Under the pieces are notes generated by a model, which had not been told where the DNA came from, made no database searches, and saw nothing but the letters and a program-made list of their open reading frames with translations. Below, piece by piece: positions 7,075 through 64,000 of a stretch of DNA of 64,000 bases. The stretch is from the NCBI GenBank assembly GCA_023362775.1, contig JALMGJ010000003.1:75935355-75999354 (forward strand). The letters run 5' to 3'. This DNA is from Charina bottae. Its lineage: Eukaryota; Chordata; Lepidosauria; Squamata; Charinaidae. The translations under genes were made by a program, and so were the position numbers. Numbering within the stretch: the first letter of the stretch is position 1; every line of letters starts with the position of its first letter.

Positions 7075-7334
7075 AATAGTATTATTGTTGTCATTGTTAT
7101 ATTTTATCCCACTTTTTAAAAAAAATATTTTGGTCAACTCAAGGCGGCAAACATACCTAATACTCCTGCCTCCTATTTCTCCCACAACAACAACTCTGTG
7201 AGGTGGGTTGGGGTAAGAGAGAGTGACTGGCCTAAAGTCATCCAACCGGCTTTCAGGCCTAAGGGAGGCCTAGAACTGACAATCTTCTAATTTCTAGGCC
7301 AGCACCTTAACCACTACACCAAACTGGCTCTCGT
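7075..7334 (-). mobile_element. tRNA-derived SINE (second squamate family)
   Basis: On the minus strand it reads as a tRNA-like head (GTGGTTAAGGTGCTGGCC, B-box-like GTTCTAG), then GACTTTAGGCCAGTCACTC, CACCTCACAGAGTTG and an AT-rich tail. The same architecture, in + orientation, is at 54945-55190. It differs from the Sauria SINEs in body and tail. No clear target duplication was found. Confidence 0.75.
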
Positions 7335-15649: not shown

Positions 15650-15686
15650 CCCCTTCATGGATCACTGCCTTGTCGTGGCGAAGGGG
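15650..15686 (+). ncRNA. Candidate HDV-like ribozyme core at the BovB 5' end
   Basis: P1 CCCCTTC (15650-15656) pairs perfectly with GAAGGGG (15680-15686). The latter directly follows a 3-bp P3, GCC (15667-15669) with GGC (15677-15679), closing the loop TTGTCGT. HDV-like ribozymes have a 7-bp P1 starting at the cleavage site and a 3-bp P3 abutting P1's 3' strand. HDV-like ribozymes are known at the 5' ends of R2 and some RTE LINEs. I could not define P2, P4 or the catalytic cytosine, so this is a structural candidate. Confidence 0.5.
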
Positions 15687-15806
15687 CTTGCATAACTCAA
15701 TGAAGTCAGGTCAAGAAGAACAGGTCATGATGGAGAGTTCTGACAAAACGTGGTCCACTGGAGGAGGGAATGGCAAACCACTCCAGTATCTTTGCCAAGA
15801 AAACCC

Positions 15807-18800
15807 ATGGACAGTATCAAAAGGCTAAAAGATATGACGCCGGAAGATGAGCCCCTCAGGTCGGAAGGTGTCCAAAATGCTACTGGGGAAGAGCGGAGGG
15901 CAATTCTGAGTAGCTCCAGAAAGTGTGAAACGGCTGGGCCAAAGCCGAAAGGACGCTCAGTTGTGGATGTGTCTGGAAGTGGAAGGAAAGTCCGATGCTG
16001 TAAAGAACAATATTGCATAGGAACCTGGAATGTAAGATCTATGAATCAAGGTAAGCTGGATGTGGTCAAACATGAGATGACAAGATTGAACATCGACATC
16101 TTGGGAATCAGCGAACTAAAATGGACAGGAATGGGCGAATTTAATTCAGGAGACCATTATATATACTACTGTGGGCAAGAATCCCTTAGAAGAAATGGAG
16201 TAGCTCTCATAGTCAATAAAAGAGTGGGAAAGGCAGTACTGGGGTACAACCTCAAAAACGACAGAATGCTTTCAGTTCGAATCCAAGGCAAACCATTCAA
16301 CATCACAGTGATCCAAGTCTATGCCCCAACCACTGATGCCAAAGAAGCTGAAGTTGACTGGTTCTATGAAGATCTACAACACCTTCTAGAACTAACACCA
16401 AAAAAAGATGTCCTTTTCATCATAGGGGACTGGAATGCTAAGGTAGGAAGTCAAAAAATAACCGGAATAACGGGCAAGTTCGGCCTCGGAGTACAAAATG
16501 AAGCAGGGCAAAAGCTAATAGAGTTTTGTCAAGAGAACACGCTGGTCATAGCAAACACTCTTTTCCAACAACACAAGAGACGACTCTACACATGGACATC
16601 ACCAGATGGTCAATACCGAAATCAGATTGATTATATACTTTGCAGCCAAAGATGGAGAAGCTCTATACAATCAGCAAAAACAAGACCTGGAGCTGACTGT
16701 GGCTCAGATCATGAGCTTCTTATCGCAAAATTTAGGCTTAAATTGAAGAACGTAGAGAAAACCACTAGACCACTCAGGTATGACCTAAATCATATCCCTT
16801 ATGAATATACAGTGGAGGTGAGGAATAGATTTAAAGGATTAGATCTGGTAGACAGAGTGCCTGAAGAACTATGGATGGAGGTTCGTAACATTGTACAGGA
16901 GGCAGCAACTAAAACCATCCCAAAGAAAAAGAAATGCAAGAAAGCAAAGTGGCTGACTGATGAGGCTTTACAAATAGCTGAGGAAAGAAGGGAAGCAAAA
17001 GGCAAGGGAGAAAGGGAAAGATATAAACAACTGAATGCAGAATTCCAGAGAATAGCAAGGAGAGATAAGAAGGCCTTCTTAAATGAACAATGCAAAGAAA
17101 TCGAGGAAAACAATAGAATGGGGAAGACTAGAGATCTCTTCAAGAAAATCGGAGATATCAAGGGAACGTTTTGTGCAAAGATGGGCATGATAAAGGACAA
17201 AAAAGGCAGGGACCTAACAGAAGCAGAAGAGATTAAGAAGAGGTGGCAAGAATACACAGAAGAACTATACAAGAAAGATCTTAATATCCCTGATAAATAC
17301 GATGGTGTGGTCACTGAGCTTGAGCCGGACATCCTAGAGAGTGAAGTCAAGTGGGCCTTAGGAAGCATTATTAACAACAAAGCTAGCGGAGAAGACAGTA
17401 TCCCAGCTGAGCTATTTAAAATCCTAAAAGATGATGCTGTTAAAGTGCTGCACTCAATATGCCAACAAATTTGGAAAACTCAACAGTGGCCACAGGATTG
17501 GAAAAGGTCAGTTTACGTTCCAATTCCAAAGAAAGGCAATGCCAAAGAATGTTCAAACTACCGTACAATTGCGCTCATTTCACATGCCAGCAAGGTTATG
17601 CTCAAAATCCTACAAGCTAGGCTTCAGCAGCATGTGAACCGAGAACTACCAGAAGTGCAAGCTGGGTTTCGAAGAGGCAGAGGAACTAGAGATCAGATTG
17701 CCAACATTCGCTGGATCATGGAAAAAGCAAGAGAGTTCCAGAAAAACATCTACTTCTGCTTCATTGACTACGCTAAAGCCTTTGATTGTGTGGATCACAA
17801 CAAACTGTGGCAAATTCTTAAAGAGATGGGAGTACCAGACCACCTTACCTGTCTCCTGAGAAACCTGTATGTGGGTCAAGAAGCAACAGTTAGAACCGGA
17901 CATGGAACAACCGACTGGTTCAAAATTGGGAAAGGAGTACGACAAGGCTGTATATTATCACCGTGCTTATTTAACTTATATGCAGAGTACATCATGAGAA
18001 ATGCCGGGCTGGATGAATCACAAGCCGGAGTTAAGATTGCCAGGAAAAATATCAACAACCTCAGATATGCAGACGATACCACCCTAATGGCAGAAAGTGA
18101 AGAGGAACTAAAGAGCCTCTTGATGAGGGTGAAAGAGGAGAGTGCAAAAGCTGGCTTGAAACTCAACATTAAAAGAACCCAGATCATGGCATCTGGTCCC
18201 ATCACTTCCTGGCAAATAGAAGGGGAAGAAATGGAAGCAGTGACAGATTTTATTTTCTTGGGCTCCAAGATCACCGCAGACGGTGACTGCAGCCATGAAA
18301 TTAAAAGACGCTTGCTCCTTGGAAGGAAAGCTATGGCAAACCTAGACAGCATATTAAAAAGCAGAGACATCACCATGCCGACAAAGGTCCGTATAGTTAA
18401 AGCTATGGTTTTTCCAGTAGCAATGTATGGCTGTGAGAGTTGGACCATAAGGAAGGCTGAGCGCCGAAGAATTGATGCTTTCGAACTGTGGTGCTGGAGA
18501 AGACTCTTGAGAGTCCCTTGGACTGCAAGGAGGTCAAACCAGTCAATCCTAAAGGAAATCAACCCTGACTGCTCATTGGAAGGACAGATGCTGAAGCTGA
18601 AGCTCAAATACTTTGGCCACCTAATGCGAAGAGAGGACTCACTGGAAAAGACCCTGATGCTGGGAAAGACTGAGGGCAAAAGGAGAAGGGGACGGCAGAG
18701 GATGAGATGGTTAGATAGCATCACCGATGTAATGAATATGAATTTGAGTAAACTCCGAGAGACAGTGGAGGACAGGAAGGCCTGGCGTACTATGGTCCAT

Positions 18801-18836
18801 GAGGTCACGAAGAGTCGGACACGACTAAACGACTGA
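15807..18836 (+). CDS. BovB ORF: APE endonuclease-reverse transcriptase (1009 aa)
   Basis: This protein nicks target DNA and primes reverse transcription of its own RNA there. The APE endonuclease spans about residues 70-305: the active-site Asn75 in TWNVRS, Glu in SELKW, the GDWNAK strand (Asp208, Asn210) and the terminal SDH (300-302). The RT domain has its catalytic YADD at 754-757, after a FIDYAKAFD box. A CESW...WCWRR C-terminal region follows, and the frame ends in TGA. I chose the ATG at 15807 because it aligns with the start of the 60.4 kb copy; the frame stays open upstream to a GTG at 15750. No stop or frameshift is seen, and no key residue is missing. Confidence 0.93.
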   Translation: MDSIKRLKDMTPEDEPLRSEGVQNATGEERRAILSSSRKCETAGPKPKGRSVVDVSGSGRKVRCCKEQYCIGTWNVRSMNQGKLDVVKHEMTRLNIDILGISELKWTGMGEFNSGDHYIYYCGQESLRRNGVALIVNKRVGKAVLGYNLKNDRMLSVRIQGKPFNITVIQVYAPTTDAKEAEVDWFYEDLQHLLELTPKKDVLFIIGDWNAKVGSQKITGITGKFGLGVQNEAGQKLIEFCQENTLVIANTLFQQHKRRLYTWTSPDGQYRNQIDYILCSQRWRSSIQSAKTRPGADCGSDHELLIAKFRLKLKNVEKTTRPLRYDLNHIPYEYTVEVRNRFKGLDLVDRVPEELWMEVRNIVQEAATKTIPKKKKCKKAKWLTDEALQIAEERREAKGKGERERYKQLNAEFQRIARRDKKAFLNEQCKEIEENNRMGKTRDLFKKIGDIKGTFCAKMGMIKDKKGRDLTEAEEIKKRWQEYTEELYKKDLNIPDKYDGVVTELEPDILESEVKWALGSIINNKASGEDSIPAELFKILKDDAVKVLHSICQQIWKTQQWPQDWKRSVYVPIPKKGNAKECSNYRTIALISHASKVMLKILQARLQQHVNRELPEVQAGFRRGRGTRDQIANIRWIMEKAREFQKNIYFCFIDYAKAFDCVDHNKLWQILKEMGVPDHLTCLLRNLYVGQEATVRTGHGTTDWFKIGKGVRQGCILSPCLFNLYAEYIMRNAGLDESQAGVKIARKNINNLRYADDTTLMAESEEELKSLLMRVKEESAKAGLKLNIKRTQIMASGPITSWQIEGEEMEAVTDFIFLGSKITADGDCSHEIKRRLLLGRKAMANLDSILKSRDITMPTKVRIVKAMVFPVAMYGCESWTIRKAERRRIDAFELWCWRRLLRVPWTARRSNQSILKEINPDCSLEGQMLKLKLKYFGHLMRREDSLEKTLMLGKTEGKRRRGRQRMRWLDSITDVMNMNLSKLRETVEDRKAWRTMVHEVTKSRTRLND

Positions 18837-18856
18837 ACAACAACAACAACAACATG

Positions 18857-19179
18857 GATAGCCACAAGATGTGTAATAGAAAATAAAGAGTTGCATTTTA
18901 GTTGAATAAAAAATATTCCCCTGGTTAAATCTCCTGATAGAAGCTGCTATAGCTTGATGGTGATACACTGACTATAGCTGTAGGCATGTGATCCATACAA
19001 AATGCTGACACAACCAACTTCTTTTTAGCTTGACAAGAACCCCTCTGGAAAAGCAGACAATATTGCTATTGAACTATCAGTAGTTACAAGATTATGACTT
19101 GACAAACTGGTACTTCATAGCACTGTATCTAGCCAAAGACGACACAATATGCCATTTATTTATTTTATTCCTGTTTTAC
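18857..19179. other. Non-coding stretch, nothing recognised
   Basis: Sequence between the BovB tail and a CR1 end; nothing recognised. Confidence 0.4.
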
Positions 19180-19520
19180 AGTACTTATCACCCAGGTTAA
19201 AGGGGGGTGGGGGCTTGAAGCAGAATTGGCAGAAAATGTATGAATGTCATTTTAATGCCTTCCCTTTCAGCTGCACCAACCATAATAAGGGTCTGAAATT
19301 ACAGGAAGGCAGATTCCAGGTGAATGTTAGGGGGGAAAAGATTCTAACAATAAGAGCAGTTTAACCGTAGAACTGATTGCCTAATGATATAGTGAGCTGC
19401 CCTTCATTGCACATATCTCAACAAAGCCTCAACAGCCATCTGTGGATTTACACACTGAATGAATAGCTGGACTTAATAAAGTAAATAGTCCTTTCTAACT
19501 CTGTGATTCTGTGATCCTGG
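19180..19520 (+). mobile_element. CR1 LINE 3' end
   Basis: A + frame shows a KLQEGRFQVNV-type block (near 19290-19325) characteristic of the CR1 ORF2 C-terminus. It is followed by GGACTTAATAAAGTAAATAGTCC and the end CTTTCTAACTCTGTGATTCTGTGAT, which contains CR1's short 3' tandem repeat (ATTCTGTG). It is 5'-truncated, the usual CR1 state. Confidence 0.85.
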
Positions 19521-20585
19521 TAACTCCTACTGTGTCTGTGTTTCTAGGACTTTAAAGAAATCAGAATGAAGTTGTGTTGTCTTAGAAAGAGGCACTTCCT
19601 TTGCTGTTTGCAGGCATAAATACATTACCAATTACTAGCTCTTGTTTAGGTGTATCTGTGTACACTTCTGTAGACTCATTCCTGGGAATCATACAAGCCT
19701 TTATCATTCCCTTTTTAAAGCAAATGCCTTAATCATTCTATTTGGCAATCAGCTCATAAGGGAGGAGACCCATAAAACATCTGCTCAGTTCTTTGAGTTT
19801 TCTCTGGAGCAGGTGAGAAAGGTGGTAATTTGCCAAATGGTGAACAGTTGGCACAAGTAATAAATTTCATGGAAGTTGAAGGCCAGGGAATCTAAAATAG
19901 AAGAACAAAGTGTGCGTATGTACAATGGACCCTTTTAATGCTTGCCTAAGAATGAGATCATACATTTTGTATTTGTTATGCGTCTGACAGAATGGGCTTT
20001 GACTTATGAAAGGTTGTGCCGCAATATAGTTCTTAATTTTTAAGGTACCAAAGAACTTTGGGGGGGGGGGGTGTTGCACATGACCAACAGGTCAAAAGTT
20101 TTACCTGTCATTGAACGTGATTATTTCCTCTTGCCACCTGTTGCACTCATGGGATTCTAAAATATATTTATCATGGTTGCTACTTGTTTGTACTGCATGA
20201 CCATGAGTATGGAAAGTCGATCCAGTCCATTTTTATTGTAAAGTTTAGAGGAAAAGGGGGAGGGACATAATTATTCTGTAAGCAATTTTACTTCGCTCTA
20301 CTGCTCGGCAGTTTTAAGAAAATCTACTGTAGCCCAGGAAGAGCTTTTAACAAGAAAAGTTCCCATTTAAACATCAGAAGGAGTCTGTCAGCATCTTTTC
20401 AGACTAACACATTTTATTAAAAGGCATAAGCTGTCATGAGCTATATATCACCTCATCATATGCATGGAGTGGCTACCTGAAGTGGGATGAGGCTGATGAT
20501 GAGGTGGGGGGAAGGGGGGAGACCTGTTTTAAATAACCCAGCTTAACTTCTGTCGTAGATGAAGGTGGCAGTGGACTACCTAGAG
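19521..20585. other. Non-coding stretch, nothing recognised
   Basis: A short poly-G run lies at 20060-20070. Nothing else was recognised. Confidence 0.4.
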
Positions 20586-20720
20586 CAGTGTTTCTCAACC
20601 GTGGTAACTTTAAGAGCTGTGGACTTCAACTCCCAGAATTCCCCAGTCAGCAAAGCTGGCTGGAGAATTATGGGAGTTGAAGTCCACACCACTTCAAGTT
20701 GTCAAGGTTGAGAAACACTG
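20586..20720. mobile_element. Short hAT MITE (135 bp)
   Basis: The termini CAGTGTTTCTCAACC and GGTTGAGAAACACTG are perfect 15-bp inverted repeats. A perfect 8-bp duplication, ACCTAGAG, flanks it at 20578-20585 and 20721-20728. The interior is largely palindromic, with inverted GACTTCAACTCCCA blocks. No transposase is encoded. Confidence 0.95.
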
Positions 20721-20943
20721 ACCTAGAGAAACATAACAATGGAAGCCTTGGAAATCCTTTCCACAAGTGAAATGTCAGCCTATTGATTAAATGAGTCCAA
20801 CAAAAAGAGAGAGACTGGTAAAACCAGGGAATAATTTCATCTTTTTTTCTGCTCTCACATTATAAGCAATAGATAGAGCAGCTGCCCAGAATATGGTTTC
20901 TTAGACCTGTCAAGGGAGAAAGCAGAAATGAACAGCTCATAGT

Positions 20944-21060
20944 TTGTTTATTTATTTATTTATTTGTCGTATTTATACCCCGCCTATCCCCTCCCTAACG
21001 GAGGACTCTAGGCGGCTTACATATATATATATATCATTAACATCATACATATACAATTTC
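20944..21060 (-). mobile_element. LINE/SINE 3' tail fragment
   Basis: The (TTTA)n run followed by TATACCCCGCC and GGACTCTAGGCGGC is the reverse complement of the GCCGCC-AGAGTCC...AATAAAT type of 3' end found at other sites in this window. A short TA run sits at 21022-21034. Confidence 0.45.
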
Positions 21061-21099
21061 ATTTTAAATCGCACGCTAAGGAAAGGGGTAAGGGAACCG

Positions 21100-21255
21100 A
21101 CTCTTCCGTGGCTTGGACTACAAGCCCCACAATGCCTTGCGTCGGAGCCGGCTGCTGACGTCCTGTAGATGAAACTGCTTCTTTCCGGGATCCGTCATTG
21201 CCGCCGCCATTCCAGGGATCTTCCGATTCGGTGGCCGACTCCCCGACAGGATGCC
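21100..21255. promoter_or_regulatory. CpG-rich promoter-like patch (candidate only)
   Basis: Within about 120 bp there are an ACTACAAGCCCCACAATGCC site (21117-21136) resembling the ZNF143/SBS motif, TGACGTC (CRE-like, near 21156), TTTCCGGGAT (ETS-like, near 21181) and GCCGCCGCCATT (YY1-like, reverse strand, near 21200). The patch is CpG-rich in an AT-rich setting and lies upstream of CDK18 on its strand. It is wedged between two repeat fragments, so it may itself be a repeat. Confidence 0.25.
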
Positions 21256-21257
21256 AG

Positions 21258-21395
21258 CATATTCTCCTACTTAAGGTGGTACCCATTTATCTACTTGCAA
21301 AGCTTTCGAACTGTTGGGTTGACAGGAGCTGGGACTAGCAATGAGAGCTCACCTCATTGCGTGGGGATTCGAACTGCCGACCTTCTGAGTTAGTT
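21258..21395 (-). mobile_element. Sauria-type SINE fragment
   Basis: GGTGGTACCCATTTATCTAC, GCTTTCGAACTG, GACAGGAGCTGGGAC and GGGGATTCGAACTGCCGACC are the minus-strand middle and head of the Sauria SINE. The 3' third is missing. Confidence 0.7.
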
Positions 21396-21789
21396 GGAGG
21401 AATGAAACAAGCAATCAAAATAGAAAAGGAACATATAGCAAATGAGGAGCTCTATCTTACACACACACATTTTATTTAACATTTTTCTAGTAAAACATTT
21501 CTCTGGTTCCTTTTCTTCTGTGCTCGTGGCTGATGTTGTAATTTCTCTGATCCTTAAACTTCTGTTTTAGAGCATGAGAATACCCTCATCTAACTGTGCA
21601 AGCCACTGTGGCAACTGCAGCAGCCTTCCTTAACCAGCCTCCTCCAGAGTCCTTAGGTTTTTCCCTGGCTTTATTCCAGGTAGACAATCAGAGTGCTGTT
21701 TCTGCTGAAGGGAAGGGGATGCAGGGTAGCTGTTTTTCCACCTCCTTACCCAGAGTGTGACTCTCTAAACAAAATGCCTTGTTGTTCAT
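21396..21789. other. Non-coding stretch, nothing recognised
   Basis: No gene or repeat was recognised. Confidence 0.4.
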
Positions 21790-22040
21790 TACATGTTCAT
21801 TACATTGGTGATGCTATCTAACCATCTCATCCTCTGCCGTCCCTTCTCCTTTTTCCTTCAGACTTTCCCAGCATCAGGGTCTTTTCCAGTGAGTCCTCTA
21901 CTACTGGAAAAACTTTTAATTTCATGGCTGCAGTCACCGTCTACAGTGATCTTGGAGCCCAAGAAAATAAAATCTGTCACTGCTTCCATTTCTTCCCCTT
22001 CTATTTGCCAGGAAGTGATGGGACCAGATGCCATGATCTG
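21790..22040 (-). mobile_element. BovB fragment with a double internal deletion
   Basis: On the minus strand it starts at BovB sequence equivalent to about 18180 of copy A. It runs to the Cys-rich region, then jumps from AAATTAAAAG to TTTTTCCAGTAG and again to AGGACTCACTGG, missing about 100 and 210 bp of copy A. It ends near the copy A 18735 equivalent. The same two junctions recur at about 44895-45045. Confidence 0.8.
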
Positions 22041-22077
22041 TTAAATGTTACCCCTCCATTATTCACCCTAGTGCCAG

Positions 22078-24394
22078 CTGTTGTTGTTCAGTCGTTTAGT
22101 CATGTCCGACTCTTCGTGACCTCATGGGCCATAGCACGCCAGGCCTTCCTGTCCTCCCCTGTCTCCCGGTGTTTATTCAAGTTCATGTTCATTACATCGG
22201 TGATGCTATCTAACCATCTCATCCTCTGCCGTCCCCTTCTCCTTTTGCCTTCAGTCTTTCCCAGCATCAGGGTCTTTTCCAGGGAGTCCTCTCTTCGCAT
22301 TAGGTGGCCAAAGTATTTGAGCTTCAGCTTCAGCATCTGTGCTTCCAATGAGCAGTCACGGTTGATTTCCTTTAGGATTGACTGATTTGACCTCCTTGCA
22401 GTCCAAGGGACTCTCAAGAGTCTTCTCCAGCACCACAGTTCAAAAGCATCAATTCTTCGGCGCTCAGCCTTCCTTATGGTCCAACTCTCACAGCCATACA
22501 TTACTACTGGGAAAACCATAGCTTTAATTATATGGACCTTTGTCGGCAAGGTGATGTCTCTGCTTTTTAATACGCTGTCTAGGTTTGCCATAGCTCTCCT
22601 CCCAAGGAGCAAGCATCTTTTAATTTCATGGCTGCAGTCACTGTCTGCGGTGATCTTGAAGCCCAAGAAAATAAAATCTGTCACTGCTTCCATCTCTCCC
22701 CCTTCTATTTGCCAGGAAGTGAATGGGACCAGATGCCATGATCTGAGTTTTTTTTAATGTTGAGTTTCAAGCCAGATTTTGCACTCTCCTATTTCACCCT
22801 CATCAAGAGGCTCTTTAGTTCCTCTTCACTTTCTGCCATTAGGGTGGTATCGTCTGCATATCTGAGGTTTTTGATATTTCTCCCGGTAATCTTAACTCCA
22901 GCTTGTGATTCATCCAGCCCGGCATTTCTCATGATGTACTCTGCATATAAGTTAAATAAGCAGGGTGATAATATACAGCTTTGTCGTACTCCTTTCCCAA
23001 TTTTGAACCAATCGGTTGTTCCATGTCCGGTTCTAACTGTTGCTTCTTGACCTGCATACATGTTTCTCAGGAGACAGGTAAGGTGGTCTGGTACTCCCAT
23101 CTCTTTAAGACTTTGCCACAGTTTGTTGTGATCCACGCAATCAAAGGCTTTAGCGTAGTCAATGAAGCAGAAGTAGATGTTTTTCTGGAACTCTCTTGCT
23201 TTTTCCATGATCCAGCGAATGTTGGCAATCTGATTTCTAGTTCCTCTGCCTCTTCGAAACCCAGCTTGCACTTCTGGTAGTTCTCGGTTCACATACTGCT
23301 GAAGCCTAGCTTGTAGGGTTTTGAACATAACCTTGCTAGCATGTGAAATGAGCGCAATTGTACGGTAGTTTGAACATTCTTTGGCATTGCCCTTCTTTGG
23401 AATTGGAGCGTAAACTGACCTTTTCCAATCCTGTGGCCACTGTTGAGTTTTCCAAATTTGTTGGCATATTGAGTGCAGCACTTTAACAGCATCATCTTTT
23501 AGGTTTTTAAATAGCTCAGCTGGGATAGTGTCTTCTCCGCTAGCTTTGTTGTTAATAATGCTTCCTAAGGCCCACTTGACTTCACTCTCTAGGATATCCG
23601 GCTCAAGGTCAGTGACCACACCATCGTATTTATCAGGGACATTAAGATCTTTCTTGTATAGTTCTTCTGTGTATTCTTGCCACCTCTTCTTAATCTCTTC
23701 TGCTTCTGTTAGGTCCCTGCCTTTTTTGTCCTTTATCATGCCCATCTTTGCACAAAACGTTCCCTTGATATCTCCGATTTTCTTGAAGAGATCTCTAGTC
23801 TTCCCCATTCTATTCTTTTCCTCGATTTCTTTGCATTGTTCATTTAAGAAGGCCTTCCTATCTCTCCTTGCTATTCTCTGGAATTCTGCATTCAGTTGGT
23901 TATATCTTTCCCTTTCTCCCTTGCCTTTTGCTTCCCTTCTTTCCTCAGCTATTTGTAAAGCCTCATCAGTCAGCCACTTTGCTTTCTTGCATTTCTTTTT
24001 CTTTGGGATGGTTTTAGTTGCTGCCTCTGTACAATGTTACGAACCTCCATCCATAGTTCTTCAGGCACTCTGTCTACCAGATCTAATCCTTTAAATCTAT
24101 TCCTCACCTCCACTGTATATTCATAAGGGATATGATTTAGGTCATACCTGAGCGGTCTAGTGGTTTTCCCTACGTTCTTCAATTTAAGCCTAAATTTTGC
24201 GATAAGAAGCTCATGATCTGAGCCACAGTCAGCTCCAGGTCTTGTTTTTGCTGACTGTATAGAGCTTCTCCATCTTTGGCTGCAAAGTACATAATCAATC
24301 TGATTTCGGTTGGAGGAAATTTGTAGGAGGAAATGGCAACCCACTCCAGTATCCTTGCCAAGAAAACCCCATGGACAGTATCAAAAGGCTAAAA
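22078..24394 (-). pseudogene. BovB LINE copy B, 5'-truncated, with an inverted 5' tip
   Basis: The 3' end is at about 22078 (reverse-complement tail, then the stop region). The minus-strand ORF is broken into 23808-22789 and 22693-22100 by a frameshift near 22700-22790, with a further break near 24030. The RT palm is recognisable. Homology stops at 24310, at the NQIDY region. From about 24324 to 24394, sequence equivalent to copy A 15765-15830 appears in the + sense. A tip inverted in this way is expected from twin priming. The copy is dead. Confidence 0.85.
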
Positions 24395-27300
24395 CGAAAT
24401 GCCTCCCCCTTCCCAAATTTCATTGATTAGAAGCTCTCTGTTTTATCTACGTGTTCTCTTAGCCTTGCTTCTGTGCAGGTGTTGCTAGCCTATTCAGATC
24501 ACTGCTAGTCAGTGGGACTGGCTCAAAAGAAATCAGCCTTGCCCCTGTGTAGCTTGCAGGTGTTGGCTGTGTTGATTCAGCATGTCCAACAGTTTTGAAA
24601 GTGTGTGCATTTAAACATTCTGCGAGGGATAATAGTGCCTGATCATCCAGATAAGTAAATCTCACATGGGCACATTACGGGAGGAGGGGGGACTGCAGTG
24701 GCTGGTAGCCAACAACATTTTTTTAGACTTGGTCTTCAACAATGCATTTTTGTGTCATATTTGCTATTCTTTCTTCTTTGTCCAGTGTAATGAGTAGACT
24801 AATATATTGCATAGGAATGTCAGTATTATTACTCAGCTTCATCTGTGGTTATTATGCAGCAGGGAATTTCGATTATGAAAAGTCATCTCCTTAGCCTGAC
24901 TATCCTAAAAGTAGTGTTATCTACTCTGTTAGTTAACATAGCTAGATAATGCTGGGTTTTTATTTTCTTTTATTGGCCTTTCTTAATGCTGCTTATTGTT
25001 CTCATGCTAATATACAGTATTTTGCTATTCAGAATACCAAACTGCTGTTTGGAAAGCAATTTCTTGGCCCCGGCATTTCAGGAACTGAAATGTCCTCTGG
25101 AATGAAGCAGCTTTTTTGAGCAAGCAAATGTAAGATTGAAAATGATGAACAAGAGAGCAGAACAAGAACAGATTTTGTTGCGCTGGTGGTGAACCAAAGC
25201 AACTCACCAGGCCCGGCAAGTAGGCGTTAGGGGCATTGAGAATCAAGATGCATTGACAAAGCTAAGTTTACAGAAGAACAAAGAGTGTTTTTATCTGGGA
25301 TTCATTATTGGGCAGAGTGTAAAACTTCATTTTGGGATTTATGGACAGAAAGATAACACATGAAAGTTACATTATTTTCCTTCCTCTATAATGGCAGAGG
25401 CAGACTTAAGTTGCTTAGGAAAAAAAATTAGTGCAATGCTTTCAGTTCAAGTTATAATTAAAAAGTCTTTTAATGAGAGAATGCAGACGATTGATAGTCA
25501 GCTGTTTGAAATTCATCCAGAGGAAAATAAGGTTTTCTGTGCTTTATTAGTAACTGGTTCCACAGACAAATAACACAACCCTTGTAAAATCCAATAGTAT
25601 GCAGACTGAGAGAAGAGAAGGAAACTAAAATGGAATGATGCAATTAGGAACAGGAGGCTAGGAGGAAAATGCACAAAGGAAAAAAATGATATTTAGTCCC
25701 ATAGACACACAGGAGTAAGTATTGTAGATCCCTACAATGTGGATGAATGGATAAATAGTCTTCAGAAACTGACAGACAGCCCCGACTCCTGAGCCCATTT
25801 AAGCCAGGGGTAACTTTTCTGATCACTTCAAGCCATGCCCTCTGAAACATGTGTCTCAGGCAGCTCAGATATTTTCAGATTTGTATTCTCTTTCTTGATG
25901 AAAATTTAAGTTCCAAGCAACATGGCTTTTCCACGAATTGTTTGTAACTAAGGTTAAGCCAATGAACTTTTCCAGCACAAAAAGGGAAGTATTAAAGGGC
26001 CAACAGAGGTAATTCACATTTGTCTGCTAGTTGGCACAACCACATTCTGTACTGCTGCTGGGCACCATATCTATTCCCCATCAGACAGTTTGCCTGGGAA
26101 TGTTGCTTTGGTCATATTCAGCTTCAGTCATCATGGTACCAAATCTGATCAGTGGCATCATCATGAAGATAAATGAGTTGAGAACGGGATTTCCTGTCCT
26201 CATCCTGATAGTTTAAAAAGAATGGTGCCCAGCAACAAGGGCATGACTATGCAATGTCCTCCTCTAGTTGCATCCTCTCCTTCTCTCCCAAAATCAGTAA
26301 CTATGTCTTCTCCTCCATCTTCTAATTTCAATACCTGTGTACAGATTGGCAAAGCTGACCAAGTTAGTACAAGTGAACCTAACTGGAAATTAAGTTAAAT
26401 GCATATGAGGGGCAGCTCTTGAGTCCCATGCAGACAGCTGCTTTGTGACCTTACAGATAAAAATCCCAAACAGACAAATCCTTGCAAACAATTGTGCAAA
26501 ATGAAATCTGACCCTCACCTCATTAGACAGGTATTTTAGCCACCAGACAGCACATCTAGTAAAAAGCTAGAAGCTGGTTGCAATTTATTACAGCTCTTGG
26601 AATACAGACCGGAGCAGGTTGAATGCTTATTCTTGTGGGAAGCAAATGGGCAGGAACAACCACATGCATCTCAAATTGTAGACATTTTAATTGGAGTTTC
26701 CTGTGAAAATAATAGGATGGTCCCAGTCTAGTTAGGAGAAATGGATCATGTTTTTGAGTTCAAAGAGTCATAAAGATAATGAATGCGGAATAGCCAAGCG
26801 GTAGCAGCAACAGGACCTAATAATATCCTGCAATTTCTCGGCGACTGTTTTTACCCCATCTCACTTCCTCTCCAAACTCTGTTATATTTAGTAAAATATA
26901 ACAAGTTAGTCATATGAAGAGAAATCTTTTATCACCTGCAATTTCCATATTAGCCTTATTAGAAGCCATTGATTTCAGCCAAGCATCTTTGGACTTGAAA
27001 GAGGCAGAATCTTGCATTTCAGACAGAATAGATGGGAGAACAAGAAATGGAGTAAAACCCAACATTTACTGATTTGTCCATTTCAAGAGCAAATACTTAG
27101 CCATATTGCACTGGATTGGATTGCACAGAATTACCAAACTCCACAATGTAAGTATGGATTTGTCTTCAGAATTTTGCTTCATTTGATCCATCTTAAACGT
27201 TGCATGAAAAAATACAGTCTGTGCAAGACAATGCAAACTTTTCTATATTAGGGGAATGTAGGACGATAAATGCTTAACACGTTGGCCAGTGCTAAATGAG

Positions 27301-42408: not shown

Positions 42409-57388
<14,980 letters not shown>

Positions 57389-60217
57389 TGAACCCTGTGA
57401 GCGAAGCCGTCGGGAGTCATGTACTCCTGGCAGGGTCACCCATGGCGGTAAGGTCCAGGGGGAGGAACCAGACAAAGAACGATCCAAGAAAGTCCTCAAC
57501 GGAAGAACAGGCGGAAGATAACAAGGTGTATTGTTACAACGGCTGCGAAGGCGGATGAAGGCTGCAGCAGACAAAAGGTCACCAATCGTCATGGTATCCA
57601 TGCCATTGGATTAGAGCCTTTTTCTGTGAAGGTTGTGTGCTGATCGTTGTGCACCGATCTCCACACATAAAACAAATTCACGCACAGGCGTCTTCCAACC
57701 ACACCAAACCCAAAACAACCAAAAGTCCCATGGCGACTGACGAATGGCAACGGGGGCAGGACTGTGAAATCCGGAAGCTCCTAGTCATGGACCAGCACAT
57801 GGGCGGTGGATACGGATTCAGTCGCCCTGACTCAAGGATCGAGGCAGTTGAGTAGTTCGGCAGCTGTATCCACGACTGAGCAGCCCTATTTAGGATCCAC
57901 TCTGCTCACCCCATATGGGGAGGGGGCTAGAAAAGGTGCCCTAAACATAGTCTGCCTCATTTTCTCCCTGACTGGATTACCGCGACCAGTGGGGTCACCA
58001 TCTAGCGGTCATAAAAAACACATGAATTTTGGAACATGGAATATACGGACACTGCAAGACAATATGGATAGTGAACGACCTGAACGTAGGACTGCCATTA
58101 TTGCAAGGGAGCTGAGACGTTTTAATATCGATATAGCAGGACTCCAAGAAACTCGAAGAGCAGGAGAAGGACAGTTGAAGGAAGAAAAAGGAGGTTATAC
58201 CTTCTTTTGGAAAGGACTGCCTGAACAAGAACGACGAATACATGGGGTAGGCTTTGCTATCAAAAACGACATTGTGAAGCTCTTGTCAGAAGTTCCCACT
58301 GGGATTAACGAACGACTCTCAACTCTGTGAATAAAACTCGCCAAAAACCAACAGGCAACTATCCTAAGTGCTTATGCATCAACACTAGATGCAGATGAGA
58401 ATATCAAGGAAAAATTTTATACCCAGCTGGACACCATCTTATCAGAGATACCAAAGGAGGATAAAATTATCCTCCTGGGCGATTTCAATGCAAGAGTTGG
58501 GCGTGATTTTGATTTGTGGCCAGGGATCATTGGGAAAGAAGGAGTTGACAACAGCAACACGAATGGAATCTTACTTCTGACTAAATGTGCAGAGCATAAC
58601 CTTGTCATTACTAACACACTCTTTCGCCAGAAAAATAAATTTAAAACATCATGGAAGCACCCACGGTCGAAGCACTGGCATCTTTTAGATTATGTAATTG
58701 TCCGTGCTAGAGATCGCCGTGATGTACTTCTCACCAAAGCAATGACGAGCGCCGATGACTGCTGGACAGACCATCGATTAATTCGATCCACGATGGCCAT
58801 AAAGATTGTCCCTCATCGTAGGCTCCAAGGAAGAAAACCAAGGCGTAAAATGAATACACTGGCCCTTCAAGATCCTATTAAACGAGCTTGCTTTCAATCA
58901 ACTCTCAAGGAACATCTGCCTATGGAACTTCCTGAAAATGTTGAGGAACACTGGATTAAATTGAAGACTTCTATTATTTCAGCCTGTGAACAAACTATCG
59001 GATACCAGACTAAGAGACATCAGGACTGGTTTGATGAGAACAATAGTGAGATTGAACATATTATTGACAAGAAAAGGAAAGCCTTCTAGATATGGCAAAA
59101 AGATATTAACTGTGCCGTTAAGAAAAAAAAATCTACGCCAGTGCAAAGGCAGAAGTCCAGAGAAGAACTAGAGAACTTAAGAACATATGGTGGATAAAAA
59201 AAGCCCAAGAAACCCAACATTTTGCAGATGCTCATGATGCATGGGGCTTTTTTAATGCCATAAAGGCCATCTATGGACCAACAAACCATGGTACAAATCC
59301 CTTACACTCAGTAGATGGTGCTAAACTTCTAAAAGACAAAGAGTCTATTGCACTGCGCTGGAAAGAGCATTACTACAATCTCCTTAATCGTCACTCTACT
59401 GTGGCTGATGAAGTCTTCTTGAAAATCCCGCAAAAACAAATAAGAAATGAGCTTGCAGTACCCCCTAGTTTGGAGGAAGTGAGTAAAGCCACTAAACAAA
59501 TGAAAAATAACAAAGCTAGTGGACCTGATGGGATTCCTGCTGAAGTCTTTAAAGAAGGCGGGCCTGAACTTACACAACAACTTCATAAGCTCATCGAAAA
59601 AATCTGGATGAGGGAGGAGATTCCAGCAGACTTTAGGGATGCCATAATTATCACTCTCTTTAAAAAGGGTGATAGAACAGACTGTGGAAACTATCGAGGC
59701 ATCTCCCTTCTAGCCACAGCAGGCAAAATCCTGGCAAAGATCATTGCAAACCGTCTCCTATCTGTATCAGAAGACATCCTCCCTGAAATGCAAAATGGCT
59801 TCCGCCCTTCCAGGGGAACAGTGGATATGATCTTCACTGCACGACAGCTTCAAGAAAAATGCAAGGAGCAAAACCGCCCTCTGTACATGGCGTTTATTGA
59901 TCTGACTAAAGCTTTTGATACTGTAAATCGTACTGCTCTCTGGACCATCCTTCTGAAAATCGGATGCCCTGATAAATTTGTGAACATCTTGCGGTTACTC
60001 CATGACGACATGATGGCAACAATCCTGAATAACAATGGCTCTCAAAGCGATCCATTTAAAGTGGAATCCGGCGTTAAACAGGGATGTGTTATTGCTCCAA
60101 CCTTATTCGCTATCTTCATCGCTATGATTATGCACCTTGTTGAAGAGAAACTTCCTACTGGTGTAGAAATTATATATCGAACAGATGGAAAGCTTTTTAA
60201 TCTTAGTAGGCTGAAAG

Positions 60218-60257
60218 CTCCAGCAAAGGAGATCGTTACCTTGTCGTGGTGCTGGAG
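60218..60257 (+). ncRNA. Candidate HDV-like ribozyme core at the BovB 5' end
   Basis: P1 CTCCAGC (60218-60224) pairs perfectly with GCTGGAG (60251-60257). P3 ACC (60238-60240) pairs with GGT (60248-60250) around TTGTCGT, and P1's 3' strand follows at once. Compared with copy A, both helices change sequence yet keep pairing. The first P1 base is the first base after the target duplication, which is where a self-cleaved transcript would start. P2, P4 and the catalytic base were not resolved. Confidence 0.55.
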
Positions 60258-60398
60258 CTTGAGCACCTCAATGAAACCATGAGCTAAACCGTGAAGGGAC
60301 ACCCAAGACGGGAAGGTCGTGGCAGAGAGGTCAGACTAAATACGATCCCTGGGGAAGGTAATGGCAACCCACCCCAGTATTCTTGCCATGAAAACTAA

Positions 60399-63300
60399 AT
60401 GGATCAGTACAACCAAAGATATGTCGGTATACCATCGGAAGATGGGACTCCCAGGTCAGAAGATGGTCAAAATGCTACTGGGGAGGAACAGAGGATACGT
60501 TCAACTAGCCCCAGATGTGATGACGCAGCTAGCTCAAAGCCGAAAGGACGGCTAGCGGCCGACGGTGCTGGTGGTGAACGACGAATCCGATGTTCTAAAG
60601 ATCAACACACCATAGGAACCTGGAATGTAAGATCTATGAGCCAGGGCAAATTGGATGTGGTTCTTGGTGAGATGTCAAGATTAAATATAGACATTTTAGG
60701 TGTCAGTGAACTGAAATGGACTGGAATGGGCCACTTCACATCAGATGACCACCAGATCTACTACTGTGGACAAGAGGACCACAGAAGAAATGGAGTAGCC
60801 TTCATAATTAATAATAAAGTGGCTAAAGCAGTGCTTGGATACAATCCAAAAAACGATAGAATGATCTCAATTCGAATTCAGGGTAAGCCATTTAACATCA
60901 CAGTGATCCAAATATACGCCCCAACCACAGATGCTGAAGAAGCAGAAGTAGATCAGTTATATGAGGATCTGCAGCACCTACTAGATAATACAGCAAAAAG
61001 AGATGTTATTTTCATTACAGGAGACTGGAATGCTAAGGTGGGTAGTCAGACGACACCTGGAATTACAGGCAAGCATGGTCTGGGAGAACAAAATGAAGCA
61101 GGACATAGGCTGATAGAATTTTGCCAAGACAACTCACTGTGCATAACAAACACTCTCTTCCAACAACCTAAAAGACGACTTTATACATGGACTTCACCAG
61201 ATGGTCGACACCGAAATCAGATTGACTACATCCTTTGCAGCCAAAGGTGGCGGACATCTATACAGTCGGTAAAAACAAGACCTGGAGCTGACTGTAGTTC
61301 AGATCACGAACTTCTTATTGCAAAATTTAGAATCAGACTAAAGAGAATAGGGAAGACCCACAGATCAGTTAGATATGAGCTCACTAATATTCCTAAGGAA
61401 TATGCAGTGGAGGTGAAGAATAGATTTAAGGGACTAGATTTAGTAGATAGGGTCCCAGAAGAACTATGGACAGAAGTTCGCAACATTGTTCAGGAGGAGG
61501 CAACAAAAAACGTCCCAAAGAAAAAGAAAACCAAGAAGGCAAGATGGCTGTCTGCTGAAACACTGGAAGTAGCCCAAGAAAGAAGGAAAGCAAAAGGCAA
61601 CAGTGATAGGGGGAGATATGCCCAATTAAATGCAAAATTCCAGAGGTTAGCCAGAAGAGATAAGGAATTATTTTTAAACAAGCAATGTGCGGAAGTGGAA
61701 GAAGACAATAGAATAGGAAGGACAAGAGACCTCTTCCAGAAAATTAGAAACATCGGAGGAAAATTCCAGGCAAAAATGGGTATGATCAAAAACAAAGATG
61801 GTAAGGACCTAACAGAAGCAGAAGAGATCAAGAAAAGGTGGCAAGAATATACGGAAGATCTGTATAGGAAGGATAATAATATTGGAGATAGCTTTGACGG
61901 TGTGGTCAGTGAGTTAGAGCCAGACATCCTGAAGAGTGAGGTTGAATGGGCCTTAAGAAGCATTGCTAATAACAAGGCAGCAGGAGACGATGGTATCCCA
62001 GCTGAACTGTTTAAAATCTTGCAAGATGATGCTGTCAAGGTGATGCATGCCATATGGCAGCAAATTTGGAAAACACAAGAATGGCCATCAGATTGGAAAA
62101 AATCAACTTATATCCCCATACCAAAAAAGGGAAGCACTAAAGAATGTTCAAACTATCGAACAGTGGCACTTATTTCACATGCCAGTAAGGTAATGCTCAA
62201 GATCTTGCAAGGTAGACTCCAGCAATTCATGGAGCGAGAATTGCCAGATGTACAAGCTGGGTTTAGAAAAGGCAGAGGAACTAGAGACCAAATTGCCAAT
62301 ATCCGCTGGATAATGGAGAAAGCCAGGGAATTTCAGAAAAACATCTATTTCTGTTTTATTGACTATTCTAAAGCCTTTGACTGTGTGGATCATAACAAAT
62401 TGTGGCAAGTTCTTGGTGGTATGGGGATACCAAGTCATCTTGTCTGCCTCCTGAGGAATCTGTATAACGACCAAGTAGCAACGGTAAGAACAGAGCACGG
62501 AACAACGGACTGGTTTAAGATTGGGAAAGGAGTACGGCAGGGTTGTATACTCTCACCCTACCTATTCAACCTGTACGCAGAACACATCATGCGACATGCT
62601 GGGCTTGATGAATCCAAGGCTGGAGTTAAAATCGCTGGAAGAAACATTAACAATCTCAGATATGCAGATGATACCACTTTGATGGCTGAAAGCGAGGAGG
62701 AGTTGAGGAGCCTTATGACGAAGGTGAAAGAAGAAAGTGCAAAAGCTGGGTTGCAGTTAAACCTCAAAAAAACCAAGATTATGGCAACCAGCTTGATTGA
62801 TGACTGGCAAATAGAGGGAGAAAAAGTGGAGGCAGTGACAAACTTTGTATTTCTAGGTGCAAAGATTACTGCAGACGCTGACTGCAGCCAGGAAATCAGA
62901 AGACGTCTACTTCTTGGGAGGAGAGCAATGGCAAATCTTGATAAAATAGTTAAGAGCAGAGACATCACACTGACAACAAAGGTCCGCATAGTTAAAGCAA
63001 TGGTATTCCCTGTAGTAACCTATGGCTGTGAGAGCTGGACCATAAGGAAGGCTGAGCGAAGGAAGATAGATGCTTTTGAACTGTGGTGTTGGAGGAAAAT
63101 TCTGAGAGTGCCTTGGACTGCAAGAAGATCAAACCAGTCCATACTCCAGGAAATCAAGCCAGACTGCTCACTTGAGGGAATGATATTAAAGGCAAAACTG
63201 AAGTACTTTGGCCACATAATGAGAAGACAGGATACCCTGGAGAAGAAGCTGATGCTAGGAAAAGTGGAAGGCAAAAGGAAGAGGGGCCGACCAAGGGCAA

Positions 63301-63431
63301 GATGGATGGATGATATTCTGGAGGTGACAGACTCAACCATTGGGGAGCTGGGGATGGTGACGGCCGACAGAAAGCTCTGGCGTGGACTGGTCCATGAAGT
63401 CACGAAGAGTCGGAAGCGACTGAACGAATAA
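60399..63431 (+). CDS. BovB ORF: APE endonuclease-reverse transcriptase (1010 aa)
   Basis: This is the enzyme for target-primed reverse transcription. The endonuclease has TWNVRS (Asn76), SELKW, GDWNAK (Asp209, Asn211) and SDH (301-303). The RT palm has FIDYSKAFD and YADD at 755-758. The C-terminal region (YGCESWTIRKAE, WCWRKILRVPWTARRSNQ, KSRKRLNE) is complete up to a TAA. The start ATG at 60399 aligns with that of copy A at 15807; a QNATGEE block follows about 23 residues later in both. No premature stop, frameshift or lost catalytic residue is visible. Confidence 0.94.
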   Translation: MDQYNQRYVGIPSEDGTPRSEDGQNATGEEQRIRSTSPRCDDAASSKPKGRLAADGAGGERRIRCSKDQHTIGTWNVRSMSQGKLDVVLGEMSRLNIDILGVSELKWTGMGHFTSDDHQIYYCGQEDHRRNGVAFIINNKVAKAVLGYNPKNDRMISIRIQGKPFNITVIQIYAPTTDAEEAEVDQLYEDLQHLLDNTAKRDVIFITGDWNAKVGSQTTPGITGKHGLGEQNEAGHRLIEFCQDNSLCITNTLFQQPKRRLYTWTSPDGRHRNQIDYILCSQRWRTSIQSVKTRPGADCSSDHELLIAKFRIRLKRIGKTHRSVRYELTNIPKEYAVEVKNRFKGLDLVDRVPEELWTEVRNIVQEEATKNVPKKKKTKKARWLSAETLEVAQERRKAKGNSDRGRYAQLNAKFQRLARRDKELFLNKQCAEVEEDNRIGRTRDLFQKIRNIGGKFQAKMGMIKNKDGKDLTEAEEIKKRWQEYTEDLYRKDNNIGDSFDGVVSELEPDILKSEVEWALRSIANNKAAGDDGIPAELFKILQDDAVKVMHAIWQQIWKTQEWPSDWKKSTYIPIPKKGSTKECSNYRTVALISHASKVMLKILQGRLQQFMERELPDVQAGFRKGRGTRDQIANIRWIMEKAREFQKNIYFCFIDYSKAFDCVDHNKLWQVLGGMGIPSHLVCLLRNLYNDQVATVRTEHGTTDWFKIGKGVRQGCILSPYLFNLYAEHIMRHAGLDESKAGVKIAGRNINNLRYADDTTLMAESEEELRSLMTKVKEESAKAGLQLNLKKTKIMATSLIDDWQIEGEKVEAVTNFVFLGAKITADADCSQEIRRRLLLGRRAMANLDKIVKSRDITLTTKVRIVKAMVFPVVTYGCESWTIRKAERRKIDAFELWCWRKILRVPWTARRSNQSILQEIKPDCSLEGMILKAKLKYFGHIMRRQDTLEKKLMLGKVEGKRKRGRPRARWMDDILEVTDSTIGELGMVTADRKLWRGLVHEVTKSRKRLNE

Positions 63432-64000
63432 ACAACAACAAAAGGCTGAAAGCAAAAAATAAGGTAATTGCAACTTCTGTTATAGAACTTCAATATGCTG
63501 ATGATAACGTAGTCTGTGCACACTCCGAGGAAGATCTTCAAACTATCCTAAACATCTTTGCAGAAGCATATGAAAAACTCAGCCTCTCGATTAACATTAA
63601 AAAAACCAAAGTGCTTTACCAGCAAGTTCGAACCAATCCCTCTGCAGTGCCATCAATCCAGCTTAAAGGTGTGTCACTAGAAAATGTCGATCACTTTTCT
63701 TATCTCGGCAGCCATCTATCTACAAAAGCCGACATCGACGCTGAAATTCAGCATCGCCTGAGCTCTGCGAGTGTAGCTTTCTCCCGAATGAAGCGTAGAG
63801 TGTTTGAGGATCGGGACATTCGCAGGGAGACCAAAATGCTTGTTTACAAAGCCATTGTACTACCAACCCTTCTGTACGCCTGTGAAACATGGACCCTCTA
63901 CAAACGCCACCTCCAACTTCTTGAAAGATTCCATCAACGCTGCCTCCGAAAAATTCTGCAAATTACTTGGGAAGATAGGCGGACTAATGTTAGCGTATTA

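Follow-up and report, generated by a model that had tools for sequence, protein, structure and literature searches.

HDV-like self-cleaving ribozymes at the 5′ ends of LINEs, RTE elements included, are established according to PMC3774820, PMC8256844, PMC4035085, PMC7761336 and PMC13188248. The cleavage site of these ribozymes is the first nucleotide of helix P1, and their core is formed from L3 and J4/2 (PMC4908430). The ribozymes of R4, L1 and RTE elements cut at the 5′ junction of the element (PMC3774820). Since HDV-like ribozymes cleave at the first P1 nucleotide, a transcript carrying one at the tip of a LINE would cut itself just before the first base of the element. Several vertebrate genomes contain BovB in abundance; this LINE moves between species and is a standard case of horizontal transfer. 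The original prediction proposed an HDV-like ribozyme at the 5′ tip of BovB and knew of no description for this element. Searches of the open-licence literature agree with the latter statement: they found no paper, judged in part by title and opening of the abstract, that connects an HDV-like or other self-cleaving ribozyme with BovB (Bov-B). Ruminski et al. 2011, the central work on LINE ribozymes, may contain an earlier description.

We analyzed a DNA stretch of 64,000 nt, hereafter the window, which contains the similar LINE copies D and A together with another LINE, E, that differs from them. Locus E surfaced when D was compared with the rest of the window. The coding regions and the target-site duplication of D are as follows.

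15744..18836, + strand: open frame of copy A, 1030 codons from stop to stop, with the start codon inside
57785..60216, + strand: coding remains of LINE E (57785-58330, 58331-59089 and 59122-60216), with a stop and a frame change
60208..60218, + strand: left target-site duplication of D, AGGCTGAAAGC, an exact 11-base match to 63443-63453
60399..63431, + strand: uninterrupted open reading frame of copy D, 1010 aa, endonuclease and reverse transcriptase
63443..63453, + strand: right target-site duplication of D, where the reading frame of E resumes

PF03372, PF14529 and PF00078 were detected in both D and A, each with a single ORF for an APE-type endonuclease and a reverse transcriptase (RT), and the two proteins shared 75.4% identity over 1006 aa. 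Following the original prediction, we refer to both copies as BovB elements of the RTE clade. D sits within the RT frame of E, which is open from 59122 to the insertion. Read across a single copy of the duplication, this frame continues in phase after D and, with a YADD motif, reaches the end of the window. Over 350 aa, the RT piece of E shared 34.0% identity with D. E is an old, broken APE-type LINE (57785-64000) that is split by D and leaves the window at its end.

The 5′ ends of BovB (D and A) and of LINE E very probably form an HDV-like self-cleaving ribozyme, as judged from their nucleotide sequences. The parts of the fold are listed below; the fold of E lies 5′ of a different LINE and was absent from the original prediction.

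60218..60224, + strand: 5′ strand of P1 in D, CTCCAGC; predicted cleavage just 5′ of 60218
60231..60236, + strand: 5′ strand of P2 in D, GATCGT, between P1 and P3, pairing with 60342-60347
60238..60250, + strand: P3 in D, ACC (60238-60240) and GGT (60248-60250), with L3 TTGTCGT (60241-60247)
60251..60257, + strand: 3′ strand of P1 in D, GCTGGAG, pairing with CTCCAGC
60265..60269, + strand: 5′ strand of P4 in D, ACCTC, pairing with 60327-60331
60327..60331, + strand: 3′ strand of P4 in D, GAGGT, pairing with ACCTC
60336..60341, + strand: J4/2 of D, CTAAAT, with C60336 as candidate catalytic C by its position and the CNAA motif
60342..60347, + strand: 3′ strand of P2 in D, ACGATC, pairing with GATCGT
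15650..15757, + strand: ribozyme-like fold of copy A, with P1, P2, P3, P4 and J4/2
15650-15656 and 15680-15686, + strand: P1 of A, CCCCTTC and GAAGGGG
15658-15665 and 15750-15757, + strand: P2 of A, TGGATCAC and GTGGTCCA
15667-15679, + strand: P3 of A, GCC and GGC, flanking TTGTCGT (15670-15676)
15694-15698 and 15735-15739, + strand: P4 of A, AACTC and GAGTT
15744-15749, + strand: J4/2 of A, CAAAAC
57336..57486, + strand: ribozyme-like fold of LINE E
57336-57342 and 57367-57373, + strand: P1 of E, CTCACTC and GAGTGGG
57345-57352 and 57479-57486, + strand: P2 of E, TGGATCGT and ACGATCCA
57354-57366, + strand: P3 of E, ACC and GGT, with L3 TTGTTGT
57381-57385 and 57464-57468, + strand: P4 of E, GTTCC and GGAAC
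57473-57478, + strand: J4/2 of E, CAAAGA

The P1, P3 and loop sequences that had been predicted for D and A were thus all found in place. The predicted span of 60218..60257 was correct for these sequences and covers part of the fold, which ends at 60347 and measures about 130 bases (60218-60347) in D. The prediction had left P2, P4 and J4/2 to be looked for and had counted on P2 and P4 being possible; P2, P4 and a CNAA joiner were found in all three copies. Together with the two-sided changes and the boundary of D described below, they support its HDV-like reading of the BovB 5′ end.

The spacing of the three folds is constant around the core. P1 is 7 bp long from the predicted cleavage site and its 3′ strand abuts P3; one base lies between P2 and P3, and L3 has 7 nt. 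P1 is followed by C, TTG, three bases and the 5-bp P4, and the far side of P4 by CNG, A, the 6-nt J4/2 and P2. J4/2 starts with CNAA in each case (CTAAAT in D, CAAAAC in A, CAAAGA in E), and the role of C60336 as catalytic base is proposed from HDV-like ribozymes. In all three copies, L3 retains a U at position 1 and a G at position 6, like the L3 U and G that pair with each other in HDV-like ribozymes; in Nasonia R2, the L3 G paired with an L3 U is highly conserved and needed (PMC3774820). The variable parts are J1/2 (6 nt in D, 1 nt in A, 2 nt in E), P2 (6 bp in D, 8 bp in A and E, with pseudoknot placement in all three) and the segment between the P4 strands (57 nt in D, 36 nt in A, 78 nt in E). 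P1.1 can form one G-C pair, between G3 of L3 and the C after P1, and the next pair would be U-U; the G-C pair is invariant in D, A and E, and there is therefore no covariation at this position. In HDV-like ribozymes, P1.1 consists of one or two pairs (PMC4908430). The first P1 pair is C-G in all three copies.

Directly 3′ of the fold, shortly before the start codon, lies another hairpin (60349-60377 in D, 15758-15786 in A), formed by CTGGGG/CCCCAG in D and CTGGAG/CTCCAG in A, with a two-sided change in one pair. The stretch of this hairpin is kept in the Bov-A SINEs of ruminants. At 24121-24400, a + strand fragment of BovB 5′ UTR (from about 24328; 85% identity to D over 54 bases) adjoins minus-strand BovB coding sequence in an arrangement like a 5′ inversion. 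The BovB fragment begins just 3′ of the expected ribozyme end.

The exact 11-base duplication places the first base of D at 60218 or 60219, the last base C of the left duplication being ambiguous between duplication and element. Because 60218 is also base 1 of P1, the boundary of D matches the predicted cleavage site within one base. This boundary would fit cleavage at the element 5′ junction, by analogy with the RTE ribozymes. For copy A, the duplication comprises no more than AACATG and merges with the AAC tail; T15649 precedes P1, and the sequence is consistent with a start of A at 15650. For E, whose 3′ end lies beyond the window, 57336 is the putative and not a proved first base.

We compared the pairing of the helices across D, A and E, a small sample of three related sequences that all come from this window. 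Because the J1/2 lengths differ, the MAFFT alignment introduced a gap inside P1, and the pairs were tabulated by hand instead. All 67 tabulated cells of the 23 pairs were paired. For the two outer P2 pairs, the table takes its cells from A and E alone. By eye, the two corresponding cells of D, next to its 6-bp P2, hold one A-C mismatch and one G-C pair, and their inclusion would give 68 of 69. Two-sided changes were seen in 11 of the 23 pairs (P1, four; P2, two; P3, one; P4, four), which bears out the compensatory changes that had been noted for P1 and P3. Since D and E have the same P2 and P3, the covariation in these helices is that of A against D and E, and a strand swap between D and E changes nothing there. 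When the 3′ letters were re-dealt among the copies, none of 200,000 trials reached 67 (mean, 56.7; maximum, 66). Dealing whole strands between copies lowered the pairing of P1 from 21 to 13-18 and that of P4 from 15 to 9-13. All three copies can adopt the fold, which keeps its spacing and shows compensatory changes.

These results bear on the reading that the pairings are chance matches inherited from a common ancestor of the three 5′ ends. Taken by themselves, P1 and P3 are not rare and say little: the 64,000-nt window offers 53 qualifying start positions on its + strand and 49 on its − strand. When D, A and E were each subjected to 100,000 dinucleotide shuffles, P1 and P3 appeared at one fixed start in 11, 13 and 16 of them, respectively. 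With P2 added, the number was 2 of 100,000 for each, and with the full descriptor, which includes CNAA and P4, it was 0 of 100,000 for each. In the window, the full descriptor matched on the + strand at 15650, 57334/57336/57338 and 60218 only, and had no match on the − strand; this specificity is an upper estimate, because the descriptor was written after the three sequences had been viewed. It allows a J1/2 of up to 6 nt; a version with up to 5 nt missed D, and the widening is tuning. Looser full descriptors also match elsewhere. One gave nine (+) and seven (−) matches in the window, and 12 Markov-resampled windows, each scanned on one strand, gave one to six matches apiece. With − strand positions counted on the reverse complement, one relaxed descriptor added 7166 and − 57430, and another added 7166, 9000/9001 and − 20122. 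Allowing one P1 mismatch gave nine other places on the + strand and four on the − strand, and omitting P4 added 7206 and five − strand places. The site at 7166, isolated and tied to no known LINE 5′ end, matched both the loose and the relaxed descriptors and is probably a chance match. Chance is nevertheless a very improbable explanation of the three folds. Common descent keeps letters and not complementarity, and the two-sided changes without any broken pair among the 67 cells counted therefore speak against it, as does the drop in P1 and P4 pairing upon every exchange of whole strands between copies.

A conserved 5′ UTR fold that does not cut, and serves the binding of the RT protein or the ribosome, perhaps as a ribozyme that lost its activity, is a more serious alternative and still an unlikely one. 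The first P1 pair of HDV is G-U. The C-G first pair found here counts against a ribozyme, as does a P1.1 of at most one G-C pair. So does the 1-nt J1/2 of copy A, since an Agam-2-1 construct with a one-nucleotide spacer showed little cleavage (PMC4908430). The hairpin that directly follows the fold in D and A also favors a non-cutting structure, indicating that structure in the 5′ UTR extends past the ribozyme. Rfam gave no HDV match at the gathering threshold in the whole window, nor at E ≤ 10 for the D, A and E stretches, both searches being run with no positive control alongside. This absence agrees with a non-cutting fold, but an Rfam match is not a defining feature of the HDV-like fold, and models that are blind to pseudoknots may miss folds with a long P4 insert. 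Pseudoknot-free minimum free energy folds contained P1 in D and E, had P2 in place of P1 in A, and contained P3 in none. Two observations speak against a fold that does not cut: D, A and E all retain the J4/2 C, CNAA and the U and G of L3, and the boundary of D lies at the predicted cut, for which such a fold gives no reason. Another class of ribozyme is the least credible reading, with hardly any probability. An example would be the truncated twister ribozymes that PMC7761336, citing work in preparation, describes as conserved at RTE 5′ ends. The helix order and the abutting P3 and P1 are HDV-like instead, and Rfam had no twister match at E ≤ 10 for D, A and E, a search that truncated ones may escape.

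Relatives were also sought outside the window. Viral contigs searched with the D protein and the RT piece of E, genome contigs searched with the D protein, and viral contigs and phages searched with DNA patterns yielded no relative. One genome-contig match to a DNA pattern, in a Hyphomicrobiales MAG, had no upstream P1 partner by eye and was taken as chance. Among plasmids, 385 records matched the D protein, none covering 80% of D; among the matches listed, 15 of 20 were annotated as group II intron RT/maturases. NZ_CP104070.1, filed as an Alicyclobacillus fastidiosus plasmid, contains within 17232-24752, a region of 7.5 kb with no annotated feature, a stretch that matches about 500 aa of the BovB protein at 26% identity; it is possibly eukaryotic contamination.

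We propose the following course for an HDV-like ribozyme at these 5′ ends. Transcription would enter from upstream of the element, and the first ~130 nt would fold into the nested pseudoknot of P1, P2, P3 and P4. The C heading J4/2 would help to cut the RNA just before base 1 of P1, and the element RNA would keep a defined 5′-OH end. Reverse transcription of the cut RNA would then give full-length copies that start at P1 base 1. Cleavage, its co-transcriptional course and its link with the boundary of D are the parts that we infer. A ribozyme at the tip would explain an exact RNA 5′ end under outside promoters, would predict the first base of every full-length BovB copy, and would let BovB cut its RNA out of a host transcript exactly where the element begins.

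The less expected part is that the core and its spacing are common to two LINE families with distant proteins. A second family with a distant RT and the same core and spacing suggests a module whose age or mobility exceeds that of one family. There is about an even chance that BovB carries an undescribed HDV-like subfamily (L3 UUGUYGU; C-UUG-N3-P4; CNG-A-CNAANN) in common with a LINE whose RT is only 34% identical. If so, the ribozyme would be a 5′ module, either inherited from long ago or swapped, and would free both LINEs from carrying a promoter of their own.

The HDV and CPEB3 ribozymes have the same nested double-pseudoknot order, 7-bp P1, 3-bp P3 and C at the head of J4/2 (see PMC8256844). 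In contrast to them, the folds described here have UUGUYGU as L3, a P1.1 of at most one G-C pair, a C-G first pair and no Rfam HDV match. The L1Tc/ingi Pr77 ribozymes of trypanosomatids are likewise HDV-like and located at the 5′ end of a LINE that is not site-specific (PMC4035085). They belong to a different LINE clade, and the comparison is one of described features. The R2 ribozymes share a P1 of 6-7 bp, a P2 of at least 5 bp, a variable P4, the catalytic C and the conserved L3 G (PMC3774820). R2 inserts site-specifically into 28S rDNA, and its P1 frequently includes rRNA sequence (PMC3774820), whereas P1 of D is wholly element-borne and its target is not rDNA. The ribozymes of RTE/R4 clade LINEs (Ruminski et al. 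2011), known here through citing papers, likewise lie at the LINE 5′ end and cut at the 5′ junction, as is predicted here; the elements in the present case are BovB and LINE E.
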